DNA of 25,946 nucleotides from a virus, in the IMG/VR virus record IMGVR_UViG_3300025138_000304, positions 1-25,946 of that record, one strand, 5' to 3'. Position 1 is the stretch's first letter, and each line of letters starts with the position of its first letter. A program made the translations under genes and the position numbers. Below the pieces are notes generated by a model. It was not told where the DNA came from. It saw only the letters and a list, made by a program, of their open reading frames with translations, and did no database searches. Of the stretch, positions 1 through 22,940 are shown one piece after another.

Positions 1-2
1 GA

Positions 3-737: not shown

Positions 738-862
738 TTTTTACTTAATCTACATATACGTATAATCGCAATGTGTCATGAGTATCTAGATATGACACTA
801 AAATATATTATTCCCTATTACGATTTCTAATAATCGTATTTCACAAAAAAAATTTTGAGATT
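738..862 (+). promoter_or_regulatory. Structured leader between protease and scaffold genes
   Basis: This 125-nt gap holds a promoter-like box (752-766) and two inverted repeats. GTGTCAT at 773-779 pairs with ATGACAC at 792-798 (7 bp, loop 12). TACGATT at 819-825 pairs with AATCGTA at 832-838 (7 bp, loop 6). Neither is followed by a T-run, so they do not look like terminators. They would lie in the 5' leader of the scaffold/capsid transcript and could influence stability or translation; function is inferred only. Confidence 0.4.
752..766 (+). promoter_or_regulatory. Putative late promoter upstream of gp22-gp23
   Basis: The sequence acatatacgtataat contains TATAAT at 761-766 and resembles the recurring CATAT-N-TATAAT motif of this window, with two extra bases between the halves and without the trailing A-run. 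It lies 96 nt before the scaffold ATG. It is the most divergent of the twelve copies. Confidence 0.45.
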
Positions 863-1951: not shown

Positions 1952-1988
1952 AACTTAAAAATTAATTAACCTTAAAAAACTTAAAAAA

Positions 1989-3683
1989 ATGAGCTTAAAT
2001 ACTCTTTTAGAAAGCGCAAACCCTTATCAGTCTTTACAGTCTGACGCGGCTAGATTAGCTAGCAAATGGGAAAAAACAGGTTTATTGGAAGGAATGAATG
2101 GTGCCCACAAAAATAATATGGGTCTTATTCTTGAAAACCAAGCTAAACAACTTGTAGTAGAATCATCACAAACTAGTGGTGGTGTAGGAAATGGTGGAAC
2201 ATTCTCTTCACAAACTGGCGTAAACGTTGGTGGACAGTGGGCAGGTGTTGCTTTACCATTAGTACGTAAAGTATTTGGACAAATTGCTGCACAGGAATTT
2301 GTATCAGTACAACCAATGAATTTACCTTCTGGTCTTGTATTCTTTTTAGATTTCCAATATGGATCTTCTAAGACTCCATTCGCAGCAGGTTCTTCATTAT
2401 ATGGTGACAAAGGTGCAGGTGATAATCCTTTTGGAAACACTAACACAGGTGGACTTTATGGATCAGGTAGATTTGGATATTCAATCCAAAATACTCAATC
2501 TTTAAATGTAGTATCAACTGCCGCTAATACAACTTGGGATGAAGTAAACTTTAATAGTGATTTTTCTGCTTCTGTAGCAGCTGGTGACTATACAACTATT
2601 TCAGTACCAACTTCATCTTTAAAATTTGGTGATTTTGATGGTGTAAAAGGATTTAATATTTTCTCTGGATCTGCAACTGCAGCTGTAATTACAGGATCTA
2701 ATGGTCAAGTACCTGGTTCACAAGTAGCTGAATTCACATCTTATGATGGTGGAGCAAATGTAAAATTCGTTGTACTAGATACAGCATTTACAAATGATTT
2801 ATTAGTAGCTGTAAACTACCAAATACAACCACAAGATAATAACAGAGGTGATTTTGAAGCTGGTAACCCACATCCAAACTCATTTAACGATGAATCAGGA
2901 GCTAACTGTTGCCCAGACCAAGTAATTCCAGAAATCAACATTCAGATGCAATCATCTGCAATAGTTGCTAAAACTAGAAAACTTAAAGCTGTATGGACAC
3001 CAGAATTTGCACAGGATTTAAATGCATACCATGCATTAGATGCTGAAGCTGAATTAACTTCAATCCTTAGTGAGTACATTTCATTAGAAATCGATTTAGA
3101 AATTCTTTCTATGTTGATCGATGGTGCTGCTGCAGGAACTGAAACTTGGTCGGCTGTAAACAACATCTCTATCACAGGTACAGGTGCTACTATCGCAGAA
3201 ACTAATTTAGGATTCTATAATAGTCAAGGACAATGGTTCCAAACATTAGGAACTAAAATTCAGAAATTAAGTAACATCATTCACCAGAAAACTCTACGTG
3301 GTGGTGCTAACTTTATGGTTGTTTCTCCAACTGTAGCAACTGTTTTGGAATCAATTCCAGGATTTGCTGCTGACACAGATGGTGATGCTGCTAAAATGAG
3401 CTATGCATTTGGTGTACAAAAAGTTGGTGCTTTAAATAGCCGCCAAAAAGTATACAAAAACCCTTACATGACTGCTAACACAATCCTATTAGGATACCGT
3501 GGTACTCAGTTTTTAGAAAGTGGTGCTGTATTTGCTCCTTACATTCCGTTAATCATGACTCCACTTGTATACGATCCAGATACGTTCGTACCAAGAAAAG
3601 GTCTATTAACTAGATATGCTAAGAAAATGGTTCGTCCAGAATTTTATGGAACAATCAACGTAGCTGGTTTAGATACTTTATAG
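1989..3683 (+). CDS. 23: Major capsid protein, T4 gp23-like
   Basis: This protein builds the hexameric shell of the head. At 564 residues it is somewhat longer than T4 gp23 (521). Segments that match the T4 family are VQPMNLPSGLVFFLDFQYG (about 106-124), then AKTRKLKAVWTPEFAQDL followed by a DAEAELTSILS stretch, and near the C-terminus APYIPLIMTPLVYDPDTF plus GLLTRYAKKMVRPEFYGTI. The N-terminal prosegment has two possible gp21 cleavage sites of the (I/L/V)-x-E type, after Glu49 (ILE) and after Glu58 (VVE). The latter lies at the position of the known T4 site, before the QTSGG stretch. The gene has no promoter motif of its own, so it probably shares the gp22 transcript, and it is closed by a strong terminator. 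Confidence 0.96.
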   Translation: MSLNTLLESANPYQSLQSDAARLASKWEKTGLLEGMNGAHKNNMGLILENQAKQLVVESSQTSGGVGNGGTFSSQTGVNVGGQWAGVALPLVRKVFGQIAAQEFVSVQPMNLPSGLVFFLDFQYGSSKTPFAAGSSLYGDKGAGDNPFGNTNTGGLYGSGRFGYSIQNTQSLNVVSTAANTTWDEVNFNSDFSASVAAGDYTTISVPTSSLKFGDFDGVKGFNIFSGSATAAVITGSNGQVPGSQVAEFTSYDGGANVKFVVLDTAFTNDLLVAVNYQIQPQDNNRGDFEAGNPHPNSFNDESGANCCPDQVIPEINIQMQSSAIVAKTRKLKAVWTPEFAQDLNAYHALDAEAELTSILSEYISLEIDLEILSMLIDGAAAGTETWSAVNNISITGTGATIAETNLGFYNSQGQWFQTLGTKIQKLSNIIHQKTLRGGANFMVVSPTVATVLESIPGFAADTDGDAAKMSYAFGVQKVGALNSRQKVYKNPYMTANTILLGYRGTQFLESGAVFAPYIPLIMTPLVYDPDTFVPRKGLLTRYAKKMVRPEFYGTINVAGLDTL

Positions 3684-3881: not shown

Positions 3882-4619
3882 ATGGCAAGTAAGCACCATA
3901 CGGACGATGTATATCGACCTAAGAGAATTCCTAAAAACCCAATTAAGTTCAAACTCCAACTTAATGATGAACAAAAAGAAGCAAAATCAATTATACTTGA
4001 AAACACAGTCACTCTTTTAGGTGGTAGTGCAGGTAGTGGAAAAACATTATTAGCATGTAATGTTGCTTTAGATGGATTATTACGAAGACAATACGATAAA
4101 ATAATAATAACCAGACCTACGGTATCAAAAGAAGAAATAGGATTTTTACCTGGTGATTTAAGAGAAAAAATGGATCCCTGGGTTCAACCTATTTATCAAA
4201 ATTTTTTTCAATTATATGATAAGGTTAAAATAGAAAAACTTATTGAAGATGGTAAAATAGAAATAGTACCAGTATCTTTTATGAGAGGTAGAACATTTTT
4301 AGATTCTATGATAATAGTAGATGAAGCACAAAATGTTACTCATGAACAAATGGAAATGATAACTTCCCGTTTAGGATTAAGAAGTAAAATGATGGTATGT
4401 GGTGATGCCCAGCAAACAGATCTAAAAAAGAAATCAGATTCTGGTTTTAAGTTTTTATATTCTGCAGCTAGAAAAATTAAAAATTTAGAAGCAATTACTT
4501 TAATTACTAACCATAGAAATGAAATTGTTGAAGATTTATTAGAATATTACCAAGAAGCAATTGATAATGGAATATCTATTATAACTTCTGGTTCTAACAA
4601 TTATAATAATAGAAATTAG
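3882..4619 (+). CDS. phoH: PhoH-like P-loop ATPase
   Basis: The 245-residue protein is a PhoH-family ATPase, related to the ATPase part of RNA helicases and common in marine phages. Its precise role in phage is unsettled. Walker A is GGSAGSGKT (residues 47-55) and Walker B is IIVDEAQ (144-150, Asp147/Glu148). Further family motifs are TRPT near 78-80, GFLPGD near 87-92, RGRTF near 135-139 and GDAQQTD (174-180). The start chosen is ATG 3882, with the basic leader MASKHHTDDVYRPKRIP. It lies inside the virion block between capsid and neck genes, with its own promoter-like box at 3748, so it may be expressed late. It is complete, with no missing key residue. Confidence 0.93.
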   Translation: MASKHHTDDVYRPKRIPKNPIKFKLQLNDEQKEAKSIILENTVTLLGGSAGSGKTLLACNVALDGLLRRQYDKIIITRPTVSKEEIGFLPGDLREKMDPWVQPIYQNFFQLYDKVKIEKLIEDGKIEIVPVSFMRGRTFLDSMIIVDEAQNVTHEQMEMITSRLGLRSKMMVCGDAQQTDLKKKSDSGFKFLYSAARKIKNLEAITLITNHRNEIVEDLLEYYQEAIDNGISIITSGSNNYNNRN

Positions 4620-4622
4620 TAC

Positions 4623-4638
4623 CATATTTATAATAAAA
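4623..4638 (+). promoter_or_regulatory. Putative late promoter
   Basis: catatttataataaaa is a perfect consensus copy. TATAAT at 4629-4634 ends 11 nt before the ATG at 4646. A conventional -10 spacing would put transcription start within a few bases of the start codon. Confidence 0.75.
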
Positions 4639-8920: not shown

Positions 8921-10117
8921 ATGGCAAATTGGAAAAAGGTAATAGTTAGTGGATCTAATGCCGAGTTAGCACAATTATCCTTAACGGACTTATCAACACA
9001 AGCAACAGAAGACACAGTATTAACTATTAACACAGCCGGTGTTATTGGTACAAGAGAAAATGCTGCTAGTTCAGGAACATCAGGAACTTCAGGTTCAAAT
9101 GGATCAAGTGGTTCATCGGGTACATCAGGAGCAGATGGAACAAGTGGCTCATCAGGTGCTTCAGGAACTTCAGGTTCTTCAGGTTCTTCAGGAACTTCAG
9201 GAGCAGATGGTACTTCAGGAACTTCAGGTTCATCAGGTTCTTCAGGAACTTCGGGTTCAAGTGGTTCTTCAGGAACTTCAGGAGCAGACGGTTCATCAGG
9301 AACATCAGGATCTTCAGGTGCATCAGGTACAAGTGGTACTTCAGGTTCAAGTGGTTCATCAGGAACTTCAGGAGCAGATGGCTCTTCAGGAACTTCTGGA
9401 GCAGATGGTTCTTCAGGAACTTCAGGTTCATCAGGTTCTTCAGGAACTTCAGGAGCAGATGGTACTTCTGGTTCATCAGGTTCAAGTGGTTCATCAGGTA
9501 CTAGTGGATCAAGTGGTAGTTCTGGTACATCGGGTTCTTCAGGAGCAGATGGAACAAGTGGTAGTTCAGGCTCATCAGGTACATCAGGTAGTTCAGGCTC
9601 AAGTGGAACAAGTGGTGTAATTAATATTACCAATTCAGGAGTTAGAAGAGTAATAACTGATATTGATGGTGATAGTGCTAGAGCTAATACAAATCTTACA
9701 TTTAATGATGCTGGAAGCCCAGAGGGTGATGGATTATTAAATGTTATTGGTGATGTAATTATCACACGTGATTTAACAGTGCAAGGTACAGCATCTTTCC
9801 AAAATTCCGAAAATTTATTAATAAAAGATAGATTTATATTACTTGCTTCAGGTTCAAATTCAGCCGGAGATGGGGGTATTGTAATACAACAAGGAACACA
9901 AGATTATGGTGATGCTTTTGCTTATGATGGTCTTTCATCATTACGTTGGGGTATAACAAGTTCATTCCATGCAAGTGGTTCAGGATTTACACCAGATGCC
10001 TTTATGGCAACAGTAGTTGTTGGAACAACTAATGACCCAGATGATGCACCTACAAGGTATGATCAAGAAGGAAATATATTTGTAGCCAATAACCAGGATA
10101 TTTATATTTATTCTTAA
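8921..10117 (+). CDS. Collagen-like (Gly-X-Y) fibre protein, shorter paralogue
   Basis: A 398-residue probable tail-fibre protein. Residues 1-51 form an N-terminal domain starting MANWKKVIVSGSNAEL, shared with the protein at 10650, and probably the virion attachment part. Residues 52-231 are 60 uninterrupted Gly-X-Y triplets made mainly of GTS, GSS and GAD, with no proline. Residues 232-398 are a C-terminal domain with VRRVITDIDGD, VIITRDLTVQGTASFQN (a shaft-like module also seen at 5218), LLIKDRFILLASGS and DGGIVIQQG, as in phage fibre tips. Host-receptor contact is inferred. It has its own promoter box and precedes two small unknown ORFs. Confidence 0.85.
   Translation: MANWKKVIVSGSNAELAQLSLTDLSTQATEDTVLTINTAGVIGTRENAASSGTSGTSGSNGSSGSSGTSGADGTSGSSGASGTSGSSGSSGTSGADGTSGTSGSSGSSGTSGSSGSSGTSGADGSSGTSGSSGASGTSGTSGSSGSSGTSGADGSSGTSGADGSSGTSGSSGSSGTSGADGTSGSSGSSGSSGTSGSSGSSGTSGSSGADGTSGSSGSSGTSGSSGSSGTSGVINITNSGVRRVITDIDGDSARANTNLTFNDAGSPEGDGLLNVIGDVIITRDLTVQGTASFQNSENLLIKDRFILLASGSNSAGDGGIVIQQGTQDYGDAFAYDGLSSLRWGITSSFHASGSGFTPDAFMATVVVGTTNDPDDAPTRYDQEGNIFVANNQDIYIYS
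9074..9613 (+). repeat. Gly-X-Y array, 60 triplets
   Basis: This is a 540-bp in-frame array of 9-nt triplets (GTS, GSS, GAD, GAS, GTS), with no interruption of phase and no proline codon. Serine codons are mixed (TCA, TCT, AGT, TCG), so DNA identity between units is moderate while the protein pattern is strict. The low complexity keeps other frames open, including a spurious long minus-strand frame. Confidence 0.93.
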
Positions 10118-10560: not shown

Positions 10561-10649
10561 TAGGGAAAATTTAAAACATATTTATAATGGATATTACGGC
10601 CCTTCGGGGAAGTGGGCACTTTGTGTAACCAACCTAATAATAAATTGAT
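10561..10649 (+). promoter_or_regulatory. Structured, locally GC-rich leader of the long fibre gene
   Basis: After the promoter box this gap contains a GC-rich segment (about 10597-10618) unlike its surroundings. CCC (10600-10602), TTCG and GGG (10607-10609) can form a UUCG-tetraloop hairpin. AAGT (10610-10613) pairs with ACTT (10618-10621) across GGGC. Alternatively GCCC (10599-10602) could pair with GGGC (10614-10617). These structures overlap and may compete. No T-run follows, so it is not a normal terminator. It would lie in the 5' leader about 30 nt before the ATG. Confidence 0.5.
10576..10593 (+). promoter_or_regulatory. Putative late promoter of the long fibre gene
   Basis: acatatttataatggata matches the motif through TATAAT (10583-10588) but lacks the trailing A-run. 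It lies 61 nt before the ATG at 10650, giving a longer leader than most genes here. Confidence 0.6.
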
Positions 10650-13600
10650 ATGCCAAATTGGAAAAAAGTAATCACCAGTGGTAGTAACGCTGAGCTGAAT
10701 GAAATAAAATTAACAGGTCTTTCAACCCAAGGATCTGAAGAAACAACCCTAGTAATAAATAGTGATGGTACTGTAGGTACTAGAGAAAATGCTGCATCTA
10801 GTGGTACATCAGGTTCTTCTGGAAGTTCAGGTACTTCTGGATCAAGTGGTTCATCAGGTACTAGTGGCTCATCAGGTTCTTCAGGTACTAGTGGCTCATC
10901 AGGTTCTTCAGGTACTTCAGGTTCATCAGGTTCTTCAGGAACTTCAGGAGCAGATGGTTCATCAGGAACAAGTGGTACTTCAGGTTCCAGTGGATCAAGT
11001 GGTACTTCAGGTACTTCGGGAGAAGATGGTACTTCAGGAACATCAGGAACATCTGGTAACTCAGGTAGTTCAGGATCTTCAGGAACTTCAGGTTTAAGTG
11101 GTTCATCAGGTACATCAGGAACCTCAGGTTCATCTGGATCAAGTGGTACTTCAGGCTCAAGTGGTTCATCTGGAACATCTGGAAATTCAGGAACAAGCGG
11201 AACTTCAGGTTCATCCGGAACTTCAGGAGCAGATGGTTCATCAGGTACATCAGGAACTTCGGGCTCAAGTGGTTCATCAGGTACATCCGGTAATTCAGGT
11301 TCTTCAGGTTCATCAGGAACATCTGGGACTTCGGGAGCAGATGGCTCTTCAGGCTCTTCAGGAACTTCAGGAGCAGACGGTTCATCAGGAACATCAGGAA
11401 CTTCAGGTTCCAGTGGATCAAGTGGTACTTCAGGTAATTCAGGAACATCAGGCTCAAGTGGTTCATCTGGAATATCTGGTTCAAGTGGTTCATCAGGAAC
11501 TTCTGGAGCAGATGGTTCTTCAGGAACTTCAGGTACATCAGGATCAAGTGGTTCATCAGGTACATCAGGTAATTCAGGAACAAGCGGAACTTCAGGTTCA
11601 TCCGGAACTTCAGGTTCAAGTGGTTCATCAGGAACTTCAGGAGCAGATGGTTCATCAGGGACTTCAGGTACATCAGGCTCAAGTGGTTCATCTGGAACAT
11701 CTGGAAATTCAGGAACTAGTGGTTCATCAGGTACCTCAGGTTCAAGTGGTTCATCAGGTACATCAGGTAATTCAGGTTCTTCAGGTTCTTCAGGAACTTC
11801 AGGAACATCAGGATCAAGTGGTTCATCGGGTACATCGGGTAATTCAGGGACCAGTGGAACTTCAGGTTCATCAGGTACTAGTGGTTCATCAGGAACTTCA
11901 GGATCATCAGGATCTAGTGGAACTTCAGGACAAGATGGTAACTTTGGTGGTGCTACATTTGATTATACTTTTAGTGTATCCACTGTAATTTCAAATCCTG
12001 GAGGAGGAAATATAAGATTAAATAACTCAACCCAAACATCAGCTACAATATCATCAATTAGTGAAACTGATGATGATGGAAATTCTGTTCAATCATTTTT
12101 TGAAACAATAGATTCATCAACATCAGCTATAAAAGGTCATATGCGATTATCAGATAAAGATGATCCTTCTGATTTTATATTATTTGCTATTGACGAATTA
12201 GTTGATCAAGGAGCTTGGTGGCAATTTACAATAATATTTGAATCCCAAGGGGGTAATGCTTTAACAAATGGTGAAGATATTATAGCATCATTTGTAACAA
12301 CAGGTGATAGAGGTGATGATGGTACATCAGGTTCAAGTGGTTCATCAGGAACTAGTGGTTCATCAGGAACTAGTGGTTCATCTGGAACTTCAGGTTCAAG
12401 TGGATCTTCAGGAACTTCGGGTTCATCTGGTTCTTCAGGAACAAGCGGTACTTCTGGTAATTCAGGTAGTTCAGGTTCATCAGGAACTTCGGGTTCTTCG
12501 GGTTCCTCAGGAACATCTGGAAATTCAGGAACTAGTGGTTCATCAGGTACCTCAGGTTCAAGTGGTTCATCAGGTGTTTCAGGTTCAAGTGGTTCATCTG
12601 GAACCAGTGGTACTTCAGGTAATTCTGGTTCATCGGGATCAAGTGGTGTATCAGGTTCATCTGGTTCATCAGGAACTAGCGGTAATTCGGGAACAAGCGG
12701 AACTTCAGGTTCTTCAGGAACTTCAGGTTCATCTGGTTCATCAGGAACTAGCGGTAATTCGGGAACAAGCGGAACTTCAGGTTCATCAGGAACTTCAGGT
12801 TCATCAGGTTCAAGTGGTACATCCGGTAACTCAGGTTCTTCAGGTTCTTCAGGAACATCAGGAAGTTCAGGCTCAAGTGGTACATCGGGGAATTCAGGTA
12901 CATCTGGTACTTCTGGATCCTCGGGAACATCTGGTAATTCAGGTTCATCTGGATCAAGTGGTAATTCAGGTTCAAGTGGTTCTTCAGGAACATCAGGTTC
13001 AAGTGGTTCTTCAGGAACATCAGGAAATTCAGGTTCAAGTGGTTCATCAGGTACATCAGGAGCAAATGGAACAAGTGGTACTTCAGGTTCATCAGGTACA
13101 TCAGGATCCAGTGGGTCAAGTGGCGTATCAGGTTCTTCAGGTTCTTCAGGAACATCAGGAACATCTGGTAACTCAGGTAGTTCAGGATCTTCAGGAACTT
13201 CAGGTTCATCTGGTTCTTCAGGAACTTCAGGAACATCTGGTAACTCAGGTAGTTCAGGTTCATCAGGAACTTCGGGTTCTTCGGGTTCCTCAGGAACATC
13301 TGGAAACTCAGGTAGTTCAGGTTCATCAGGAACCTCTGGTAATTCAGGTTCATCTGGTTCTTCAGGAACAAGTGGTGCTGCTACTATTGGAAATAATGGT
13401 GATAATAGAGTAATAACAGCTACTGGTAATCCTGGATCAGTAAATGGTGAAGCAAATTTATTATTTGATGGTAGTATATTAAGTATTGATGGTTATATTG
13501 AGTACGAAGAACCAACAAGTGCTTCTGAAAGTGTTGGAGAAATAGTAACTTTTGGTAGCTTTAGTACTATTAATGGTAATATTTCAGCGGGATCTCTTCT

Positions 13601-13910
13601 TGTTAGTTTTAGTTCAATTTCTGCTCTTAATTGGAAATTAGCAGAAAATGATTTTGAAAGTAATTCATCAGGAATGTTAGGAATAGCTTTAGGTACTAGT
13701 ATTAGTAGTGGGGTTTTAATTAGAGGAATAGCTAAATTTTCTGCTTTTCCCAACTCATATGGTGCTCCTTTATATATTTCATCTACTGCAGGAGAAGTAA
13801 CTACTAGTGCTCCTGCTGGTTCTGGAGATATAGCTAGGGTAATAGGTTATAGTATTGAAAATGGGAAGATTTATTTCCACCCAGATAATACTTGGGTTCA
13901 AAGAGCTTAA
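10650..13910 (+). CDS. Giant collagen-like (Gly-X-Y) fibre protein
   Basis: A 1086-residue probable tail fibre. Residues 1-51 (MPNWKKVITSGSNAEL...) are paralogous to the start of the protein at 8921. Residues 52-429 are 126 Gly-X-Y triplets. Residues 430-551 are a non-repeat beta domain with FDYTFSVSTVI, IKGHMRLSDKDDPSDF and GEDIIASFVTTGDRGDDG, a type I recall between collagen blocks of other phage and prophage fibres. Residues 552-908 are 119 further triplets. Residues 909-1086 are a C-terminal domain with NRVITATG, LLFDGSILSIDG and VIGYSIENGKIYFHPDNTWV. X is mostly Ser/Thr/Asn/Ala and Y almost always Ser; proline is absent. The Ser/Thr-rich arrays are possible substrates for the glycosyltransferases encoded downstream. 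No transmembrane or signal sequence is present. Confidence 0.88.
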   Translation: MPNWKKVITSGSNAELNEIKLTGLSTQGSEETTLVINSDGTVGTRENAASSGTSGSSGSSGTSGSSGSSGTSGSSGSSGTSGSSGSSGTSGSSGSSGTSGADGSSGTSGTSGSSGSSGTSGTSGEDGTSGTSGTSGNSGSSGSSGTSGLSGSSGTSGTSGSSGSSGTSGSSGSSGTSGNSGTSGTSGSSGTSGADGSSGTSGTSGSSGSSGTSGNSGSSGSSGTSGTSGADGSSGSSGTSGADGSSGTSGTSGSSGSSGTSGNSGTSGSSGSSGISGSSGSSGTSGADGSSGTSGTSGSSGSSGTSGNSGTSGTSGSSGTSGSSGSSGTSGADGSSGTSGTSGSSGSSGTSGNSGTSGSSGTSGSSGSSGTSGNSGSSGSSGTSGTSGSSGSSGTSGNSGTSGTSGSSGTSGSSGTSGSSGSSGTSGQDGNFGGATFDYTFSVSTVISNPGGGNIRLNNSTQTSATISSISETDDDGNSVQSFFETIDSSTSAIKGHMRLSDKDDPSDFILFAIDELVDQGAWWQFTIIFESQGGNALTNGEDIIASFVTTGDRGDDGTSGSSGSSGTSGSSGTSGSSGTSGSSGSSGTSGSSGSSGTSGTSGNSGSSGSSGTSGSSGSSGTSGNSGTSGSSGTSGSSGSSGVSGSSGSSGTSGTSGNSGSSGSSGVSGSSGSSGTSGNSGTSGTSGSSGTSGSSGSSGTSGNSGTSGTSGSSGTSGSSGSSGTSGNSGSSGSSGTSGSSGSSGTSGNSGTSGTSGSSGTSGNSGSSGSSGNSGSSGSSGTSGSSGSSGTSGNSGSSGSSGTSGANGTSGTSGSSGTSGSSGSSGVSGSSGSSGTSGTSGNSGSSGSSGTSGSSGSSGTSGTSGNSGSSGSSGTSGSSGSSGTSGNSGSSGSSGTSGNSGSSGSSGTSGAATIGNNGDNRVITATGNPGSVNGEANLLFDGSILSIDGYIEYEEPTSASESVGEIVTFGSFSTINGNISAGSLLVSFSSISALNWKLAENDFESNSSGMLGIALGTSISSGVLIRGIAKFSAFPNSYGAPLYISSTAGEVTTSAPAGSGDIARVIGYSIENGKIYFHPDNTWVQRA
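10803..11936 (+). repeat. Gly-X-Y array block 1, 126 triplets
   Basis: A continuous in-frame array from Gly52 to Asp429 with frequent GTS-GSS-GSS nine-residue super-units and occasional GAD, GNS, GED, GLS, GIS and a final GQD. The exact multiple of three residues shows there is no phase break. Confidence 0.92.
12303..13373 (+). repeat. Gly-X-Y array block 2, 119 triplets
   Basis: A continuous array starting GDR-GDD-GTS and ending GTS before GAATIG. It is rich in GNS and includes GVS and GAN. It contains segmental DNA duplications described separately. Confidence 0.92.
12651..12794 (+). repeat. Near-perfect 72-bp tandem duplication inside array block 2
   Basis: Copies at 12651-12722 and 12723-12794 differ at a single base (TCT versus TCA, both serine). 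Neighbouring triplets differ far more, so this looks like a recent slippage or unequal recombination event adding eight triplets. Confidence 0.85.
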
Positions 13911-13925
13911 AAATTATTTTAAAAT

Positions 13926-14636
13926 ATGTCTACAACAACTATAAATGCAAGTAAACAAACATGGGCTCGAGGAGGTAATCAAGCTAGTTGGTCGGCAGCT
14001 AGAGATGCTACTTCATCTTCAACCCATACTAATTTTACAACCACCCAAGGAATCATACCCTCAGCTATTAGTGAAGTATATATCTCAGACAGAAAAGGAG
14101 ATTTTTACCAAGTCCAGAGAGCTTTTTTCTTTTTTGATACTTCAACAATAACTGATAACATTACTGCCATAGATTTAAAAATATATGGGGCTACAAATTC
14201 AGGTAATAATGTTAGAGTTGCAAAAAGTACAGCTTATGGTGGAGATGGTGGAACTGCATTTGCTAATTCAGACTTTGACAGTTGGACTTCTACGAATGGT
14301 CTTCTTCCAACTCCTTATACAAGTGCAAACCAAGCATGGGTTACAACAACTAACACCCTTTCTCTAAACTCATCAGCAATTTCAGATGCTAATAATGATG
14401 GTTATCTTATTTTAGTAGTTGTAGGTGGTGGTTTTGATTATCCTGATAATGAAATGCTTCTACCCCAAACTTTAAATTCAGGAATTGCATTTGCTAGTAC
14501 AACAGTATTCCCACAATTATTTATAACACACTCTGCTCCTTCATATGGCAATGACATAATTGGTATACCTAATAGTAAATATGATAAAGTAATTTCAATA
14601 GATAAATCTGTTATAGATGAAATAATAGGAGTGTAA
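13926..14636 (+). CDS. Putative virion adhesin / jelly-roll protein
   Basis: The 236-residue, Ser/Thr/Asn-rich beta protein starts 15 nt after the giant fibre gene and has no promoter box, so it is likely cotranscribed with it. The stretch QRAFFFFDTSTITDNITAIDLKIYG (about 64-88, quoted in part as FFFFDTSTI and IDLKIYG) resembles the core of DNRLRE/CBM96-type jelly-roll domains (R-x-[FY]-x-x-FDTS...A-x-L-x-[IL]-x). YLILVVVGGGFDY and FPQLFITH give further strands. The C-terminal 25 residues look like a separate short helix. A fibre tip or carbohydrate-binding accessory is plausible; I am not certain of the fold. Confidence 0.7.
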   Translation: MSTTTINASKQTWARGGNQASWSAARDATSSSTHTNFTTTQGIIPSAISEVYISDRKGDFYQVQRAFFFFDTSTITDNITAIDLKIYGATNSGNNVRVAKSTAYGGDGGTAFANSDFDSWTSTNGLLPTPYTSANQAWVTTTNTLSLNSSAISDANNDGYLILVVVGGGFDYPDNEMLLPQTLNSGIAFASTTVFPQLFITHSAPSYGNDIIGIPNSKYDKVISIDKSVIDEIIGV

Positions 14637-14694: not shown

Positions 14695-15570
14695 ATGAAT
14701 ATTATTTTCCAAATAGATGGTGGTTTAGGTAAAAGTATTATGGCAACGGCCATGGTAAAAGTAATAAAAAAACACTATAAAAATTCTAATTTAATAGTAG
14801 TAACATCTTATACAGATGTATTTTTAAACAATCCTTATGTATTTGCAGTACATCAAATTGGTCAACTAAATGGTTTATATCTTAAATATATTAAAGATAA
14901 AGATTGTAAAGTTTTTGCTACTGAACCTTATAAAGATACAGATTTTATAACAGAAAAACCTATAAATTTACTTAAAACTTGGTGTAAAATTTTAGGGTTA
15001 AGTTATAATAATGAACAACCCCAAATATATTTAACTCAACCTGAGATAGATTATTTTTCTCCTTATTATCTTAAAGATAAACCTATTTTAACCATTCACC
15101 CACATGGTGGTCCAGAAGGACTTGGGTATCAGTATACATGGACAAGGGATATACCAACTCCAATTGTAAAACAAGTAATAGAATATTATAAAGATTCCCA
15201 TTTAATAATCCATATTAAGAGGAAAGACCAAATAACATATGAAAATACTCTTCAAGCCCTAGATGGGTATAGAAGTATAGCAATATTATTACAAATGTCT
15301 GATAAAAGATTACTTATAGATTCTTTTACGCAACATATGGCTACAGCCTTAAATTTAAAATCAACTGTATGTTGGGTTACAACATCCCCTAAAATATTTG
15401 GTTATGAAATGCATGATAATGTATTAGCAGAACCCTTTACTAAAGAACTAGATTATACTTCTAAAATATATAATGCTTTTTCTTTATCTGAAGATATACA
15501 CTCTATTCCTTATAATGATTTGAATGAAGTATTTAATATAGACAAAATAATCTCCACTTTAAACCTATAA
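14695..15570 (+). CDS. GT9-like (heptosyltransferase-like) glycosyltransferase
   Basis: The 291-residue protein resembles GT-B enzymes of the ADP-heptose:LPS heptosyltransferase family (GT9). It begins IIFQIDGGLGKSIMATAMVK, the Gly-rich opening loop of that family, followed by NLIVVTSYTDVFLNNP. A second family feature is DSFTQHMATALNLKSTVCW (residues 209-227), matching the D-S-x-x-x-H-x-A-A-x-L motif. HPHGGPEGLGYQYTW lies near the domain junction. It is the first gene of a four-gene cassette; the next gene begins 2 nt after its stop. No motif copy precedes it; the 58-nt gap has only an A/T-rich TTTACGTATATTGG stretch. Sugar donor and acceptor are unknown. Confidence 0.75.
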   Translation: MNIIFQIDGGLGKSIMATAMVKVIKKHYKNSNLIVVTSYTDVFLNNPYVFAVHQIGQLNGLYLKYIKDKDCKVFATEPYKDTDFITEKPINLLKTWCKILGLSYNNEQPQIYLTQPEIDYFSPYYLKDKPILTIHPHGGPEGLGYQYTWTRDIPTPIVKQVIEYYKDSHLIIHIKRKDQITYENTLQALDGYRSIAILLQMSDKRLLIDSFTQHMATALNLKSTVCWVTTSPKIFGYEMHDNVLAEPFTKELDYTSKIYNAFSLSEDIHSIPYNDLNEVFNIDKIISTLNL

Positions 15571-15572
15571 AA

Positions 15573-17861
15573 ATGTTAGATAAAAAACCAAAATTATATC
15601 TCCATAGTTGTTATATAGGAACAACAGGATTTAATAATCATACTAGAGATTTTTTTAGAGAAATATCTAAAACATATAAAATAAAAGTTAGAAATTTTAC
15701 TGTTGGTAAACATTGGAAAGGTTTAGAAGACGAACCCTTTAATAAAGAAGAATATTTAACAACTTCTGATAAAATTTTTCTAGATCAACAAACATATTTT
15801 AATAATGAACATCAATTAAATGATTTTCCAATTTATCAAAATTACCCAAATGTTTTTACCCCTGATCTTAATATAATTTTAGCTGAAGTAAATCACCATT
15901 ATTTTTATCAAAACTATAAAGGTCCAAAAATAGGATACACAGTATGGGAAACAACACGATACCCTGATTATTTCTTTGATAAATTAAAAGAATATGACCA
16001 ATTATGGGTACCATCAGAATGGCAAAAACAATGCAATATAGAGCAAGGAATGCCTGAAGATAAAATAAAAGTAATACCAGAAGCAGTTGATTCAAATATT
16101 TTTCACCCGAACCCTGATGTAACTTTATCTGAATATGATGATGGTAGGTTTAAATTTGTCCATTTTGGTAGATGGGATTATAGAAAATCTACTAAAGAAA
16201 TAATAGAGGCGTTTTTAGAAGAATTTGGAGAAGATGAACCCATAGATTTAGTTTTATCTATAGACAATAGATTTGCAAAGGATAAATTAGAGACTACTGA
16301 AAATAGATTAAAACATTATAAACTTTTAGATCCTAGATTAAAAATCAAACATTTTCCCTCTAGAGAAGACTATGTAAAATATTTACAAAAGGGTCATGTG
16401 TTTTTATCATGTGCACGTTCTGAGGGTTGGAATTTACCCTTAATAGAAGCAATGGCATGTGGTACACCTTCTATTTATTCTAACTGTAGTGCTCAATTAC
16501 AATTTGCAGAAGGTAAAGGGTTACCCGTTAAAATAACAGGTAAAAAACCTGCTATAATGGGTGAATATAGTACATTCTCTCAATCTGATATGACAGGTGA
16601 ATTTTATACTCCTGATTATGAAGACTTAAAAAAAGTAATGAGGGATGCTTATAAAAATTATGATAAACATAAAAAACAAGCATTAAAAGAATCTAAAGAA
16701 ATAAGAGATAAATTTACTTGGGAAAGAGCTGCAAAACTAGCGAGTATAGAAATTGATAAATTATATAATAATCTTCCTGAAAGTAAAGTAGAAATAAGTT
16801 TTAATGAAGGACCTAAAGTTCAAACTTATGGTTCTAAAAATAAAAAATATTTTGTAGAGTTTATTGATTCACGAAATAATAAAGTTATTCATTCTTCTAC
16901 TATTACAAATAATATGTGGATTACGTGTAATAAACAATATTATGTCCCTTGGATTATTAAAATTAATGGGGAAATAGTACATAAATTAAATTTAAAAAAT
17001 AACGTTGTTAAAATATCATTAGACTCAAAATCAGTAGGTGATACTTTAGCATGGGTACCCCAAATTTTAGAATTTCAAAAAAAACATAAATGTAAAATAA
17101 TAGCTTCAACTTTTCACAATGAGTGGTTTGAAAATTTGGAAGCATATAAAAGTATTAGGTTTATACAACCCAATAGCCCCTTTGAAGCTTATGCTCATTA
17201 TACGATAGGATGGTTTAAAAACAATGAAAAATGGGATGAAGGTTTTAAAAACCCAAACTCACCTAATACTATCCCCTTAATTCAGACTATTACAGATATA
17301 TTAGGTTTACCATATAAAGAAATTAACAAAGGTGTTAATTTTACCCCAGGTAAAAGACCTATAAAAGGAAAATATATTTGTATAGGACCTAAATCAACAG
17401 CAGGTTTAAAAGAATGGCCTTACCAAAATTGGAGAGAACTAGCAAAAAAATTACACAAAAAAGGATATAAAATAGTTAATTTATCTTATGAAGGATTTAA
17501 AGGAACTAATATAATTAATAAACAAAAATTAAATTGGGATAAAACATTTAATTATTTACATCATGCAGATTTATTTATAGGATTAGGATCAGGTTTATCT
17601 TGGGTTAATTGGGCTTTAAATAAAGAAACAGTAATGATTAATAATTTTATCCCCTATGGTTATGAATTTACTAGTTATTTAACTAAAATCGAAAATAATT
17701 CTGTATGTAATAATTGTTGGGTAAGTAAAGATTATACTTTTGATGCTGGTGATTGGGATTGGTGTCCTAAAAATAAAGGAACCAAAGACCAACATATTTG
17801 TCAGAAATCAATAACAGTAGATCAAGTATATAATAAAGTTTTAAATTTATTAAATGAATAA
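15573..17861 (+). CDS. Fused GT4 glycosyltransferase + TibC/BAHT-like heptosyltransferase
   Basis: A 762-residue two-enzyme fusion. The N-terminal part (about 1-390) is a GT4-type GT-B enzyme: IGYTVWETTRYPDYFFDKL, DQLWVPSEWQK, FVHFGRWDYRKS, and the E-x7-E motif SEGWNLPLIEAMACGTPSI with Glu284 and Glu292. The C-terminal part (about 395-762) resembles bacterial autotransporter heptosyltransferases (TibC, Aah): a beta domain (KYFVEFIDSRNNKVIHSS, YYVPWIIKING), VGDTLAWVPQILEFQKKH, GPKSTAGLKEWPYQNW, LFIGLGSGLSWVNWAL, and a four-cysteine cluster Cys712-x2-Cys715-x15-Cys731-x11-Cys743 with DWDWCP. In TibC such cysteines bind iron. That family O-glycosylates serines of repetitive adhesins, usually from ADP-heptose. 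Here fibre Ser-rich arrays are the obvious candidate acceptor; that is inference. It overlaps the next gene by 8 nt. Confidence 0.85.
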   Translation: MLDKKPKLYLHSCYIGTTGFNNHTRDFFREISKTYKIKVRNFTVGKHWKGLEDEPFNKEEYLTTSDKIFLDQQTYFNNEHQLNDFPIYQNYPNVFTPDLNIILAEVNHHYFYQNYKGPKIGYTVWETTRYPDYFFDKLKEYDQLWVPSEWQKQCNIEQGMPEDKIKVIPEAVDSNIFHPNPDVTLSEYDDGRFKFVHFGRWDYRKSTKEIIEAFLEEFGEDEPIDLVLSIDNRFAKDKLETTENRLKHYKLLDPRLKIKHFPSREDYVKYLQKGHVFLSCARSEGWNLPLIEAMACGTPSIYSNCSAQLQFAEGKGLPVKITGKKPAIMGEYSTFSQSDMTGEFYTPDYEDLKKVMRDAYKNYDKHKKQALKESKEIRDKFTWERAAKLASIEIDKLYNNLPESKVEISFNEGPKVQTYGSKNKKYFVEFIDSRNNKVIHSSTITNNMWITCNKQYYVPWIIKINGEIVHKLNLKNNVVKISLDSKSVGDTLAWVPQILEFQKKHKCKIIASTFHNEWFENLEAYKSIRFIQPNSPFEAYAHYTIGWFKNNEKWDEGFKNPNSPNTIPLIQTITDILGLPYKEINKGVNFTPGKRPIKGKYICIGPKSTAGLKEWPYQNWRELAKKLHKKGYKIVNLSYEGFKGTNIINKQKLNWDKTFNYLHHADLFIGLGSGLSWVNWALNKETVMINNFIPYGYEFTSYLTKIENNSVCNNCWVSKDYTFDAGDWDWCPKNKGTKDQHICQKSITVDQVYNKVLNLLNE

Positions 17862-19296
17862 AAAGAATAAATTTACATGGATAACAGGTGGAAATGAAAG
17901 CTACTTATCTATGGTAAAAATATTAGCTAAAAGTTTACTAAAGTATTCTAAATACAATCTTATAGTGTATAGTTTTAATTGTGATTCTACAATTGATTTA
18001 CCTAATGTAACTAATAAAAGAATTGATTATATACCTAAACCTACGTCAAAATCTACACATGAACCAGACCTATTTAGTAAAGATTATTCTATTTACTTTG
18101 CTAAATACTTAGCAAGTTTAGATTCATTAAATGAAAACTTTAGTAATTTTGCTTGGATAGATGGGGATGCCTTTGCAACTGAAAATATAGATTCTTCACT
18201 ACATTATTTACCTTTTTTAAAAGATTATCCTTTATTTATGCGATATTTTAACCCGGATATAGCTCAATGGAGACAACATAATGGTGTAAGGTTAGAGGGT
18301 AGATATGGTAATGAATTAGCTTCAATAAAAGGTATAAACAGAAACCCTAATAATAAATTAATAGCAACTGGGTTTTATTTTTACAATAAAGATAGTAAAT
18401 CATTTTTTGAAAAATGTTTAGAATGGAACAAAGAATTAAACCAATACTCAGTTAAAATCTTTACAGATGATAATGCTTTCTCAGAAGAAAGAGTAGCTAA
18501 TAATATATTATGGGAAGAAAATAAAAAAGAAAACTTACCTGTTACTTGGAATAATTATTATACCCCGGAGGAAGATACTGTAGTTAACTCTTATTTTTTA
18601 AAAAAAGGATTTGATGTAATGTATAATACAGTTACATTAGAACCTTATTTTATCCATGGGCCTGACCCATCAGTTACACCTAAAAATGCCAATATGTTAA
18701 ACAAAGCATTCCAGGATTATCAACTAAAAAAATTAATGATAGTTGCCCATCCAGATGATGAATTAATATTTGGTGGTGCCGAATTGATAAAACATGGTCC
18801 AGAATATAAAGTTATTTGTCTTACTAATAAATCCAATAATATTAGAAATAAAGAATTTGAACAGGTAATGAAAAAATTAAATGTAGGTTCTTGGGAGATG
18901 TTTGATTATGAAGATACATTATATCCTACTCAACAATTTGATTTAGAAAATATTTTAATGAGTAGAAAATGGGAAAAAATAGTTACTCATAATCCTATAG
19001 GTGAATATGGTCACCCACAACACAAACAAGTATTTGATACTGTACTTAATATTACTAATGATTTTTATGTGTTTGGTAAATCCCAACAAAAATTAGACCA
19101 AAATATTTTGGATACTAAAAATAGTTTACTTACATTGTACACGTCGGAAATACCTATTATTGATCAGTTACTAACTAATAATGGTGACTGGTTTAAAAGT
19201 AGTGATAGTACTATTAATTACATAGAACATGAATATATAGAGAAGTACAATAAAAAAAAAGACAAAAATAATTATATAAAATGTTATGAAAAATAA
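17854..19296 (+). CDS. Fused GT-A glycosyltransferase + PIG-L/LmbE-type deacetylase
   Basis: A 480-residue bifunctional protein. Residues 1 to about 285 look like a nucleotide-sugar transferase of GT-A type: KFTWITGGNESYLSMVK, FAWIDGDAF with the metal-binding DGD at 103-105, KLIATGFYFYN and a late FIHGPDPS. Residues about 290-420 are a PIG-L/LmbE deacetylase: MIVAHPDDELIFGGAEL with AHPDDE at 298-303 and GEYGHPQHKQVF (383-394, His387 and His390), the zinc-binding and catalytic motifs. PIG-L enzymes remove acetyl from N-acetyl-hexosamines, so one chain might transfer a HexNAc and deacetylate it to leave a free amine; the sugar is inferred. The start overlaps the previous gene by 8 nt, and the end overlaps the next by 11 nt. 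Confidence 0.85.
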   Translation: MNKKNKFTWITGGNESYLSMVKILAKSLLKYSKYNLIVYSFNCDSTIDLPNVTNKRIDYIPKPTSKSTHEPDLFSKDYSIYFAKYLASLDSLNENFSNFAWIDGDAFATENIDSSLHYLPFLKDYPLFMRYFNPDIAQWRQHNGVRLEGRYGNELASIKGINRNPNNKLIATGFYFYNKDSKSFFEKCLEWNKELNQYSVKIFTDDNAFSEERVANNILWEENKKENLPVTWNNYYTPEEDTVVNSYFLKKGFDVMYNTVTLEPYFIHGPDPSVTPKNANMLNKAFQDYQLKKLMIVAHPDDELIFGGAELIKHGPEYKVICLTNKSNNIRNKEFEQVMKKLNVGSWEMFDYEDTLYPTQQFDLENILMSRKWEKIVTHNPIGEYGHPQHKQVFDTVLNITNDFYVFGKSQQKLDQNILDTKNSLLTLYTSEIPIIDQLLTNNGDWFKSSDSTINYIEHEYIEKYNKKKDKNNYIKCYEK

Positions 19297-20245
19297 TTTA
19301 GTACTAATTCTTTCTCATTGTGATACTAAAGAAAAAAAGGAAATATTAGAAGACAATATTAAAAAATTAAAATTTAATAACTTTGATATTTTATTATTAT
19401 CCCATATACCTACCCCTTTACACATACAGGAATCAGTAGAATATTTTATATATGATAAAAGTAATCCCATAATTAATTGGCCTGAAAGGGGAATGGTTTT
19501 TTGGAAAAAAATATTGGGTGGTATTAATTATCGTTTACAAACTATATATCCTGACTATGGTTGGACTGCCTTTAATCAAATATTACTAGGTGGTAATTTA
19601 GGTTTATCTTTAGATTATGATTACTTCAGTTTTATAAATTATGATATTCAATTAACAGATTCAATAATTGAAATGTTAAATAATCCTGTTCCATTTTTAA
19701 CTTCTACGGTTCAACCTGCTTATGAGTCTAAACCTAGATACCCAAGCTTTATGCTTAATATTTTAAATAGAAAAAACCTTAAATCTCTATTACCTATAAT
19801 TAATAAAAAACATTATATGTGTGATACCCTTCCATGGAAAAAAGAAGGCAAATTCAAATCAGCTGAAAATTATTGGGAACATTTAATAACTAACTTTTCC
19901 CATACTATTTACCCAGAGGCTGTAGGGGATTTAATTAATTTTGATAATTTTAGTACTATGTTTAATTATAGTAATACTGATAAATTTAAAATATTTTTTC
20001 AAAATAATAACACTCATAATACTATTATAAATAATGGGGTTCCTGGGGTTTTAGTTTATGATATTAATATTTCAAATTTAAAGTTGGTGGTTAATGATGA
20101 GTATACTTTTATAGAAAAAGGAAAAAATGAACTAATAGATTTGCCTGAAGTTAAAAAAATAGGATTTATGATAGATAATGAATACATAGATTTTACAGAA
20201 AAATATAAAAAATCAATTTATCAAAAAATAGATTTAGTGGAGTAA
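19286..20245 (+). CDS. Putative glycosyltransferase, last gene of the cassette
   Basis: The 319-residue protein starts LVLILSHCDTKEKKEILEDN and continues FDILLLSHIPTPLHIQESV. This opening (strand, then helix, then strand plus SH-[IT]P) is like that of GT-A type transferases of phages and some bacteria. DYFSFINYDIQL (about 111-122) could supply a DxD-like acidic loop, here reduced to N-Y-D. The C-terminal part is AT-rich, Asn/Lys-rich and unassigned. Assignment rests on weak fold resemblance plus cassette membership. No membrane segment is present. A promoter box lies just downstream, so this gene ends the unit. Confidence 0.6.
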   Translation: MKNNLVLILSHCDTKEKKEILEDNIKKLKFNNFDILLLSHIPTPLHIQESVEYFIYDKSNPIINWPERGMVFWKKILGGINYRLQTIYPDYGWTAFNQILLGGNLGLSLDYDYFSFINYDIQLTDSIIEMLNNPVPFLTSTVQPAYESKPRYPSFMLNILNRKNLKSLLPIINKKHYMCDTLPWKKEGKFKSAENYWEHLITNFSHTIYPEAVGDLINFDNFSTMFNYSNTDKFKIFFQNNNTHNTIINNGVPGVLVYDINISNLKLVVNDEYTFIEKGKNELIDLPEVKKIGFMIDNEYIDFTEKYKKSIYQKIDLVE

Positions 20246-20253: not shown

Positions 20254-20270
20254 TAATATTTATAAATAAC
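20254..20270 (+). promoter_or_regulatory. Putative late promoter; only sense-strand TATAAATA copy
   Basis: taatatttataaataac fits the window motif but carries TATAAATA (20261-20268), the classic T4 late-promoter octamer, in the sense direction. TATAAA ends 11 nt before the ATG at 20278. Confidence 0.65.
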
Positions 20271-20277: not shown

Positions 20278-20532
20278 ATGAGTAAAAAAATTAAATTATC
20301 AGAAGAAGAATTAACAATTCTTAGAGAATATCAAAAAAACCAAAATGCAATTACTTTTGACTTAGGACAAGTTGATATCCAAAAAGCATTTTTAGAAGGT
20401 CAAAGAGCTTCAATTTTGGATGGTTTAGCAGATTTACAAGAAAAATCAAATAAAACAGCTAAAGAACTTCAAAAAAAGTATGGAGAAGGAAATATAGATT
20501 TAGAAACAGGGGAATTTATTACCCCAGAATAA
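20278..20532 (+). CDS. Small coiled-coil protein of the tail module
   Basis: The 84-residue, highly charged, helical protein has ELTILREYQKNQNAITFDLG, VDIQKAFLEGQRASILDGL and EKSNKTAKELQKKYGEGNID. I recall close relatives of this pattern (ITFDLGQ, KYG-x-GNID) as uncharacterised small proteins in marine T4-like phages. It has promoter boxes immediately before and after it and sits just before the sheath gene. A tail-assembly or chaperone role is possible, but nothing in the sequence proves it. Confidence 0.75.
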   Translation: MSKKIKLSEEELTILREYQKNQNAITFDLGQVDIQKAFLEGQRASILDGLADLQEKSNKTAKELQKKYGEGNIDLETGEFITPE

Positions 20533-20591: not shown

Positions 20592-22940
20592 ATGGCAGAA
20601 ACATTAATATCTCCAGGAGTATTAGCAAGAGAAAACGATCAATCACTTGTTACGGCTCAACCATTAGTAAGAGGTGCGGCTATAATAGGCCCAACCGTAA
20701 AAGGTCCGGTTGAAAAACCAACCTATGTTAGTTCATTTAGTTCATTTAATGCTCTTTTTGGAGGAGCATTAGAAAGTGGATCTACAGATTATACTTATTT
20801 AACTTCAATAGCAGCAGATAACTATTTTTCAAGTGGAGGTAGTTCTTTATTAGTAACAAGAGTAACAAGCGGTTCTTTTTCACCTGCTCTATCAACCAAT
20901 ATTGAAAACAATGTTGAAACAGGAGATGGTGGGTTAGTAGGAGGTTTAACTCCTTGGACTGGTGGTACAAATACTGGTGATACAATAAGTACATATGCTA
21001 ACGTTGCTTTAAACGGTGTAGGCTCAGGTGCAAAAGCAACTGTAACAACAGTAGCAAGTGGTTTGTTAGTAGTTTCAACAACAGCAGTACCAACAGGTGC
21101 TGGAGTTGCATCCGGTGCATATGCAAATAGTGTATCTTCAAATCCTATTACAATAACTGCAGGTATGGTTGATACAGCTGGTGCTTCAGGTGGTACAGCT
21201 GTAATTACTACAGATGCAGCAGGTGGAGTAGTAGTAGGTGTTACTTTAGCAGTAGGTGCAAGTACAGGATACGCTGTTGATTCAATCATTACAATACCAG
21301 GAGCAACTTTACAAGCTGATCCTCAATTAGGTTCTGGAGGAACAGGGGGAGATATAGTTATTCAACTAGCAGGAATTAATGTAGGTTCAAAAGTAGGAAC
21401 AGTTTCAGTTACAACAGAAGGATCAGGATATGTAGCAGGTGGTGCAATTACAATAACTGCAGGAGACTTAGGTGCTGGATCGCTAGAAGCATCTCACACT
21501 TTATTAGACTCAGAAATAGAAAATGCAAATACTTTTATATTAGAAACACTTTCCGAAGGAATAATCATGAATAATACAACCCCTGCAGGAGCAGATTCAG
21601 CGGGGACAGAATTATCAGGTGGAGCACTTGCATTAGGTTCAGCAGACAATATTAGATGGGAAATTGCAAGTGTAAATACAGCTTCAGGTGTGTTTTCACT
21701 ACTTATTAGACGTGGTAATGATAATAATAATCAAAAAGTAATATTAGAATCATTTAATAACATTTCATTAGATCCTTTTTCTCCAAATTATATTTCAAGA
21801 GCAATTGGTGATATTACTTCTAACGTAGTAGTTGCAGCAGATGGTTCTGGAACATATTTACAAGAATCTGGTTCTTATCCAAATGTTTCTAATTACGTAA
21901 GAGTAAAAGAAGTAAAATTTAATACTCCTAAATATTTCCAAAATAATGGAGTAGCAAAAAATGAATTTACATCATCTTTACCACAAATAACTTCAGGTTC
22001 TTTTGATCAAGCAGTAGGTTCAAATCTTAATTCTACATCATTTAACCGTTTCTATGATAAAATCGATGGAACAAATACTCAAGGTTTAATTGGAACAGAT
22101 TATACAAATGCTATTAATTTATTAGCTAATCAAGATGATTTCCAATATAATGTAATTTCGGCACCAGGTTTATATTTTTCAAATTATGCTACTCAGTGTA
22201 ATTTAATTAAAAACAATACTATTTCAAGAGGTGATGCTATTTATATAATGGATTTAGTTCCTTATAATACAGCAATTAACACTGTATTACAAAATGCAGC
22301 ATCACTAGATTCTAGTTATGCAGCGGCATATTGGCCTTGGTTACAAACTGTTGATCCAAGTACTGGATTACTAGTTTATGTTCCAGCTTCAACAATGATC
22401 CCAGGAGTATATGCATTTACAGATGCTTCAAGTGATCCATGGTTTGCACCAGCAGGTATTACAAGAGGTGGAATGGGTTCAGTAGTAAGAGCTGAAAGAA
22501 AATTAACATCGGCAAATAGAGATACTTTATATGAAGGTAATGTTAACCCAATTGCTACATTCCCACAACAAGGAGTTGTAGTATTCGGACAGAAAACATT
22601 ACAAAAAGCAGCAACTGCTTTAGATAGAGTAAATGTGCGTAGATTGTTAATAACACTTAAAGATTATATTTCTCAAATTGCTGATAACTTAGTATTTGAA
22701 GCAAATACAATTGCTACAAGAAATAATTTCTTAACACAAGTAAATCCATATTTAGAAAGTGTTCAACAAAGACAAGGATTGTATGCCTTTAAAGTAGTAA
22801 TGGATGAAACAAATAATACACCGGATGTAATAGATAGAAATGAGTTAATCGGTCAGATTTTCTTACAACCAACTAAAACAGCTGAATTTATTATACTTGA
22901 TTTCAATGTATTACCAACTGGAGCAACATTCCCAGCATAA
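20592..22940 (+). CDS. 18: Tail sheath protein, T4 gp18-like
   Basis: This protein forms the contractile sheath around the tail tube. At 782 residues it is longer than T4 gp18 (659). The N-terminus, LISPGVLARENDQSLV then RGAAIIGPTVKGPVEKP, and the C-terminus, with DYISQIADNLVFEANT, LESVQQRQGLYAFKVVMDE and LIGQIFLQPTKTAEFIILDF, are typical of the sheath family and carry the inter-subunit contacts. Residues about 106-300 are a Gly/Ala/Thr/Val-rich insertion with repeated NPITITAG / GAITITAG and GYxxxxxITI elements, likely a surface-exposed beta domain. It has its own promoter box and no Shine-Dalgarno sequence. Confidence 0.94.
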   Translation: MAETLISPGVLARENDQSLVTAQPLVRGAAIIGPTVKGPVEKPTYVSSFSSFNALFGGALESGSTDYTYLTSIAADNYFSSGGSSLLVTRVTSGSFSPALSTNIENNVETGDGGLVGGLTPWTGGTNTGDTISTYANVALNGVGSGAKATVTTVASGLLVVSTTAVPTGAGVASGAYANSVSSNPITITAGMVDTAGASGGTAVITTDAAGGVVVGVTLAVGASTGYAVDSIITIPGATLQADPQLGSGGTGGDIVIQLAGINVGSKVGTVSVTTEGSGYVAGGAITITAGDLGAGSLEASHTLLDSEIENANTFILETLSEGIIMNNTTPAGADSAGTELSGGALALGSADNIRWEIASVNTASGVFSLLIRRGNDNNNQKVILESFNNISLDPFSPNYISRAIGDITSNVVVAADGSGTYLQESGSYPNVSNYVRVKEVKFNTPKYFQNNGVAKNEFTSSLPQITSGSFDQAVGSNLNSTSFNRFYDKIDGTNTQGLIGTDYTNAINLLANQDDFQYNVISAPGLYFSNYATQCNLIKNNTISRGDAIYIMDLVPYNTAINTVLQNAASLDSSYAAAYWPWLQTVDPSTGLLVYVPASTMIPGVYAFTDASSDPWFAPAGITRGGMGSVVRAERKLTSANRDTLYEGNVNPIATFPQQGVVVFGQKTLQKAATALDRVNVRRLLITLKDYISQIADNLVFEANTIATRNNFLTQVNPYLESVQQRQGLYAFKVVMDETNNTPDVIDRNELIGQIFLQPTKTAEFIILDFNVLPTGATFPA

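Follow-up and report, generated by a model that had tools for sequence, protein, structure and literature searches.

What is the target of a set of sugar-transferring enzymes encoded amid the virion genes of a phage? The question is raised by the IMG/VR virus record IMGVR_UViG_3300025138_000304, whose 25,946 bases were analysed as a whole (hereafter the window). The phage is marine, and the gene content of the window is that of a T4-like myovirus morphogenesis block, in which four enzyme genes, referred to as the cassette, lie downstream of two fibre genes with long Ser/Thr-rich (S/T) Gly-X-Y arrays. An initial annotation of the DNA had proposed that the cassette builds a glycan on the phage's own fibres. 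The comparisons described below support this proposal: TibC-like enzymes and S/T arrays accompany each other whichever of the two is searched for, none of the records picked for proline/charged collagen arrays contained the enzyme, and similar pairs are present in bacteria. The fibres are thus very probably O-glycosylated, with the TibC-like enzyme of the cassette as the starter. The fibre and cassette genes are as follows.

8921–10117, + strand: fibre 1, predicted acceptor (398 aa; 61 Gly-X-Y triplets, X = S/T/A, Y mostly S)
10650–13910, + strand: fibre 2 (long fibre), predicted main acceptor (1086 aa; 247 triplets, divided into blocks of 127 and 120 by a globular domain)
14695–15570, + strand: GT-B glycosyltransferase of the GT9 (heptosyltransferase-like) fold, from a structure model; optional member in relatives (291 aa)
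15573–17861, + strand: bifunctional glycosyltransferase, GT4 (residues ~90–390) and TibC-like (405–756); core enzyme (762 aa)
17854–19296, + strand: GT-A-like N-terminus (residues ~1–240) and PIG-L de-N-acetylase (294–399) (480 aa)
19286–20245, + strand: predicted GT-A-fold glycosyltransferase (319 aa; weak, partial fold match)

Co-occurrence of TibC-like enzymes and S/T arrays in phages

The co-occurrence search that the initial annotation had suggested was run in related and unrelated phages, and the enzyme and the array were found together when records were picked by either one. The surveyed records were fragmentary and unmatched for habitat, and near-duplicates among them were collapsed manually. 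A search of IMG/VR with TibC only returned at least 578 homologous stretches; among the matches listed, a strict S/T Gly-X-Y array was present in 28/31 of the records of ~50–322 kb. Conversely, records picked by an S/T array alone contained TibC in 18/35 cases, and in 9/10 when only records of 100 kb or more are counted, while TibC was present in 0/23 of the records picked by a proline/charged collagen array (Fisher p = 1.8e-5). Random records, picked by an arbitrary 14-mer, had neither TibC (0/24) nor arrays (0/24). When the records were split by size, the TibC rates for S/T arrays and other collagen arrays were 9/10 vs 0/4 and 9/25 vs 0/19.

The two genes are also close to each other. An array was found in 40/80 loci around TibC and in 0/120 random loci. 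In a set of 20 distinct long records, the stretch no more than 10 kb from TibC made up on average 16% of the length and held on average 68% of the array matches, and most array matches were within this distance in 13/20 records, as compared with 3.2 expected (P ~4e-7). In a set collected by sheath and tube genes, arrays were present in 17/30 TibC-positive and 1/20 TibC-negative records, the positive part taking in three unrelated phages and records first found via TibC. Control loci around GT9 genes (median 3.4 kb) were too short to weigh. In the enzyme phylogeny, array labels are spread over several clades and many fragments are unlabelled. The isolated Microcystis phage Mel-JY01 (PP395634.1; L029; recorded host Microcystis elabens), which has TibC and an array, contains an open frame with ~203 Gly-X-Y triplets on the + strand at 1–3052; its published annotation places hypothetical genes on the opposite strand (1–651 and 739–2298), and the array was apparently missed.

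The cassette arrangement recurs in 26 close relatives of the window and is therefore not a chance feature. The GT4-TibC gene is its invariant member, upstream of an 84-aa gene and the sheath gene, and the other three genes are optional. In the sub-clade L017–L022 and L024–L026, the GT4-TibC gene comes immediately after a fibre that has as many as several hundred triplets. The proposal would be refuted by a cassette that is common where no array exists, and neighbourhoods with a cassette and no adjoining array were indeed found (L010–L014), but L107 and L110 (~120 kb), which have the same cassette type, carry arrays elsewhere in the genome (214 and 71 pattern matches); L010–L014 were accordingly set aside as a disproof of the pairing. 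The contig L563 (JAAEPJ010000383.1), filed in the bacterial metagenome-assembled genome (MAG) Cli_8, belongs to a phage of the window's clade and has arrays, cassette-sized genes and a sheath-sized gene.

TibC–array pairs in bacterial genomes

The TibC-only search was extended to the genome contigs of GTDB and gave 17 TibC-like loci, with an S/T array nearby in 14/17, often as the immediate neighbour. The loci belong to Methylobacter, Methylomicrobium, Methylococcaceae, a Polaromonas MAG, Arenicellales, Acidiferrobacterales and others, plus a Nitrosotalea MAG. Several of the bacterial contigs with such pairs are long and apparently chromosomal. As well as L563, L551 and L555 may be of phage origin. 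The cut-off of the Aah/TibC family model TIGR04414 was exceeded in all 16 bacterial genomes with such loci. One array protein (L558) is only 102 aa long; it begins like a lipoprotein and contains a GTSGTSG tract. Among the three strict negatives, L562 has an interrupted array, and the Schwartzia enzyme (L566) groups with Escherichia coli TibC on the tree. The contig filed as archaeal (L565, Candidatus Nitrosotalea MAG) encodes a fusion protein of the TibC-like type together with an S/T array, and it could be archaeal, viral or misbinned. A survey of Gammaproteobacteria for the BAHT family (bacterial autotransporter heptosyltransferases), to which TibC and Aah belong, found 2/369 genomes above the cut-off; both were already in the set, and the survey therefore gave no classical comparison set.

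The S/T arrays

The estimate of about 305 triplets in the two fibres was close to our count of 308 (61 + 247), and the arrays are proline-free as described. In fibre 2, Ser or Thr occupies 207/247 X positions and Ser occupies 234/247 Y positions. Having Gly at every third residue, the window fibres match the Collagen family (PF01391) with 337.6 and 93.7 bits. Pro-rich X and Y positions, which stabilise the collagen triple helix, were not found in the window's two arrays, and the arrays were therefore not filed as collagen. The same signature, X = T/S (83–87%) and Y = S (75–86%) with little Pro, characterises the TibC-linked arrays of phages and bacteria, whereas the proline/charged collagen set has mostly P/D/A at X and Q/T/K at Y. 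In known bacterial collagens, Pro is the commonest residue at X and Thr at Y (PMC8968730). The Ser residues of the window arrays are encoded by both TCN and AGY codons, indicating that selection acts on the amino acid itself. Since the same enzyme type accompanies the same kind of repeat in unrelated phages and some bacteria, the S/T repeats are most likely a sugar-coated surface and not ordinary collagen.

Cassette enzymes

The core enzyme contains a GT4 domain (PF00534, residues 189–306, 39.9 bits vs a cut-off of 26.4) and a TibC-like domain at residues 405–756 (TIGR04414, 206.8 bits vs a curated cut-off of 200), within which residues 597–688 also match GT9 (PF01075, 35.6 bits vs a cut-off of 22). 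The TibC-like domain aligns over nearly its full length with TibC (4RAP; phmmer E=3e-35). The roles of the catalytic, sugar-site and iron-finger residues of TibC have been described (PMC4358343). Asp110, Thr226, Lys230 and Trp305 of TibC are kept as Asp490, Thr609, Lys613 and Trp677, and the four-Cys iron finger is kept as Cys712, Cys715, Cys731 and Cys743. Asp110, Trp305 and the four iron-finger cysteines are invariant across 150 homologues.

Up to six enzyme domains had been proposed for the cassette. The GT4, TibC-like and PIG-L domains exceed their family cut-offs, the GT9-like enzyme is recognised by its fold, and the GT-A domain and the fourth glycosyltransferase gave no family match above cut-off. 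In the 480-aa protein, the PIG-L domain is at residues 294–399 (PF02585, 46 bits vs a cut-off of 28.2). Its N-terminal GT-A domain, for which no Pfam match reached the cut-off, is homologous (E=4e-9) to a domain of a 1603-aa phage fusion protein, where it is flanked by GT4 and TibC. In another phage group, cassette-type domains are fused in one protein adjoining an array, and in many relatives of the window the PIG-L protein is fused to the GT4-TibC protein (~1241–1248 aa). For the 14695 protein, no sequence family matched above cut-off; its AlphaFold model (pLDDT 83) retrieved GT9 enzymes, WaaF, WaaC and TibC in Foldseek (E 2e-10 to 1e-5, TM ~0.5–0.6), and on this model it is a GT-B glycosyltransferase of the GT9 fold. 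The 19286 protein likewise had no family match above cut-off, and its model (pLDDT 90), which resembles GT-A enzymes over part of its length with a low TM of 0.3–0.4, looks like a GT-A-type enzyme.

Some relatives have additional sugar enzymes (GT25, PhyH, methyltransferase and NDP-sugar enzymes). At the cassette sites of L012 (10841–13703) and L008 (638–3732), genes for a sugar C-methyltransferase, Polysacc_synt_2, an RmlD-like protein, GT25 and a PhyH dioxygenase are present, which suggests unusual sugars in some variants.

Gene organization and candidate late promoter

The block runs in the order protease, major head protein, PhoH, neck genes, two Gly-X-Y fibres, cassette, 84-aa gene, sheath, tube and the gene starting at 24619, whose long product is probably the tape measure. 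The PhoH-like gene (3882–4619), which separates the major head gene from the neck genes, is common to several relatives. The open reading frames confirm the tight packing of the four cassette genes, all on the + strand with a 2-nt gap followed by 8- and 11-nt overlaps. They lie between the fibre and sheath genes as had been reported, with the 13926–14636 gene and the 84-aa gene also intervening.

13926–14636, + strand: protein gene, optional in relatives (236 aa; faint CBM96-like match, below cut-off)
20278–20532: 84-aa gene downstream of the cassette (open reading frame)
20592–22940: sheath gene (open reading frame)
10579–10586, + strand: TATTTATA, 64 nt upstream of the start of the long fibre (motif found here in 8/9 loci); candidate late promoter of fibre 2, from which the cassette could also be transcribed by read-through
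20257–20264, + strand: TATTTATA before the next unit (20278 gene), past the end of the fibre–cassette unit

The motif TATTTATA is found on the + strand of the window at 4625, 5189, 5748, 6942, 10579, 20257, 20553, 22957 and 24595. In the window's clade, it is located 10–75 nt (mostly 20–75 nt) upstream of most virion genes on the coding strand, preceding the tube gene in 104/105 cases, the sheath gene in 74/88, the 24619 gene in 54/65, the neck gene in 15/18 and the long fibre gene in 8/9, and it occurs in 3% of random 80-nt windows. It is a candidate late promoter. It was found before neither the GT4-TibC gene (0/47) nor the PIG-L gene (0/9), and the simplest explanation, judged from the motif, is that the core cassette genes would be read through from the long fibre gene as part of a late virion unit. 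Scans for consensus sigma-70 promoters and terminators gave hits at chance level only.

Alternative targets and explanations

The main alternative of the initial annotation was that the cassette modifies sugars of the lipopolysaccharide or capsule on the host surface in the course of infection, against superinfection or the loss of progeny onto debris. The GT4, GT9 and PIG-L families do act in surface glycan synthesis as well, and the C-methyltransferase, Polysacc_synt_2, RmlD and GT25 genes added in some relatives would suit such a role. However, the core enzyme is of a protein-glycosylating type, its gene is in the late virion block without a late-promoter motif of its own, and it tracks S/T arrays in unrelated phages and bacterial genomes but not proline/charged arrays. 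Host-surface modification is therefore disfavoured, and we regard it as improbable. A target elsewhere in the virion (sheath, head protein or globular fibre tips), with the arrays as mere passengers of the tail module, would agree with the position of GT4-TibC closely upstream of the 20278 and sheath genes in the T4-like clade, even when the array is elsewhere, and with the known mycobacteriophage glycans, which are on the capsid and tail tube as far as they are quoted in PMC12619734. This explanation is just as unlikely, as arrays are rare in T4-like relatives that have the same tail genes and no TibC, and bacterial contigs, several apparently chromosomal, pair the TibC-like gene with a small secreted array protein.

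The association could also be a by-product of habitat and genome size, if large aquatic phages gather both glycosyltransferases and low-complexity fibres. Most matches come from metagenome records, many of them aquatic, and TibC detection increases with record length. The proximity of the two genes inside genomes, the size-split comparison with other collagen arrays and the adjacent pairs in bacteria make this the least probable of the explanations.

Several observations weigh against O-glycosylation of the fibres. TibC was not detected in 17/35 array-picked records, mostly of 40–100 kb, which may be fragments or use other enzymes. The 636-kb megaphage LR756504.1 has a TibC homologue and zero strict S/T array matches, and L112–L114 have only 5 array matches, none near TibC. 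Some of the association could reflect a shared lifestyle, because both genes are in structural/tail regions and many of the sampled phages are aquatic. In the enzyme, the sugar-site Arg286 of TibC is replaced by Thr658 in the pairwise alignment (Arg in 52/150 homologues), and the stretch from Thr226 to Trp305, the region of the beta-hairpin thumb that forms the dodecamer ring of TibC, has 69 residues in the window's clade as compared with 80 in TibC (69–88 elsewhere); the donor and the assembly may thus differ from those of TibC. A dedicated ADP-heptose pathway was not found: HldE-domain-II-like genes occurred in 8/38 records, none over the cut-off. Finally, the support is comparative throughout. 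A phage-encoded supply of ADP-heptose was considered and dropped for want of convincing support, as was an HldE identity for the cytidylyltransferase-like neighbour in Mel-JY01, which gave only a borderline CTP_transf_like match.

Proposed mechanism and comparison with known systems

For glycosylation of the phage's own fibres, we infer what the enzymes act on, which sugar they transfer, in what order they work and what the phage gains, as follows. The TibC-like domain of the 15573 protein would put the first sugar, possibly heptose, on Ser/Thr of the G-(S/T)-S repeats before or during fibre assembly. Extension and trimming of the glycan would then fall to the GT4 domain of the same protein and to the products of the three neighbouring genes (GT9-fold, GT-A with PIG-L de-N-acetylase, and GT-A-like), so that each fibre would end with a dense mucin-like coat. 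Such a coat might stiffen the arrays, block proteases or tune receptor binding, as the initial annotation had suggested.

The closest known system is TibC/Aah (TIGR04414; PMC4358343), with which the core enzyme shares full-length homology, the catalytic Asp, the sugar-site Thr, Lys and Trp, the four-Cys iron finger and, by prediction, a repetitive Ser/Thr-containing acceptor. It differs in its fusion to GT4, the absence of Arg286 and a thumb region shorter by 11 residues, and on the tree the array-associated sequences stand apart from TibC and its Schwartzia relative. TibC/Aah act on a beta-helix autotransporter, whereas the acceptor predicted here takes the form of a G-(S/T)-S array; no autotransporter acceptor was recognised in the window, where the neighbours are phage virion genes. 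As neither Arg286 nor an autotransporter neighbour was found, the core enzyme was not filed as a strict BAHT. The best reading is that it works like a BAHT on a collagen-looking repeat.

Mycobacteriophage virion glycans (Freeman et al. 2023), as quoted in PMC12619734, are attached to capsid and tail tube subunits at their C-terminal ends. Judged from that quotation, they resemble the predicted glycans of the window in being on the phage's own structural proteins, and the window differs in its long fibre arrays and TibC-like enzyme. Mimivirus L230, a collagen lysyl hydroxylase/glucosyltransferase, glucosylates hydroxylysine (PMC9614988). It is likewise a viral enzyme acting on the virus's own Gly-X-Y protein, as predicted for the window, but its family is unrelated and the predicted target here is Ser/Thr. 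BclA of Bacillus spores is a Gly-X-Y glycoprotein with oligosaccharides on its collagen-like region (PMC8968730, PMC9614988), a likeness that holds for the window if its glycan is as predicted; unlike the known bacterial collagens, the window has T or S at X and Ser at Y, with Pro almost absent and an enzyme of the TibC type.

Implications

Our searches of the open-access literature brought up no previous description of phage Gly-X-Y arrays paired with TibC-like enzymes, and to our knowledge virion glycosylation by phages has been demonstrated in few systems. On balance, we lean towards a more general view, held with less confidence than that of the window's own fibres: S/T-rich Gly-X-Y arrays in phages and bacteria would be no collagens but dedicated O-glycan acceptor tracts, and separate TibC-like branches their partners, forming a widespread two-part mucin-like system of protein glycosylation in tailed phages, Gammaproteobacteria and other prokaryotes, with arrays that annotation has classed as collagen-like or overlooked. 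If the proposed fibre glycosylation is right, the fibres of hundreds of phages would bear a glycan coat, both the acceptor repeat and the starter enzyme would be recognisable, and many orphan phage glycosyltransferases would gain a testable role. The compact enzyme–acceptor pair, with an array protein of as little as 102 aa, would be of use for protein glycoengineering, and the thinking on phage adsorption and on host or antibody recognition would change.

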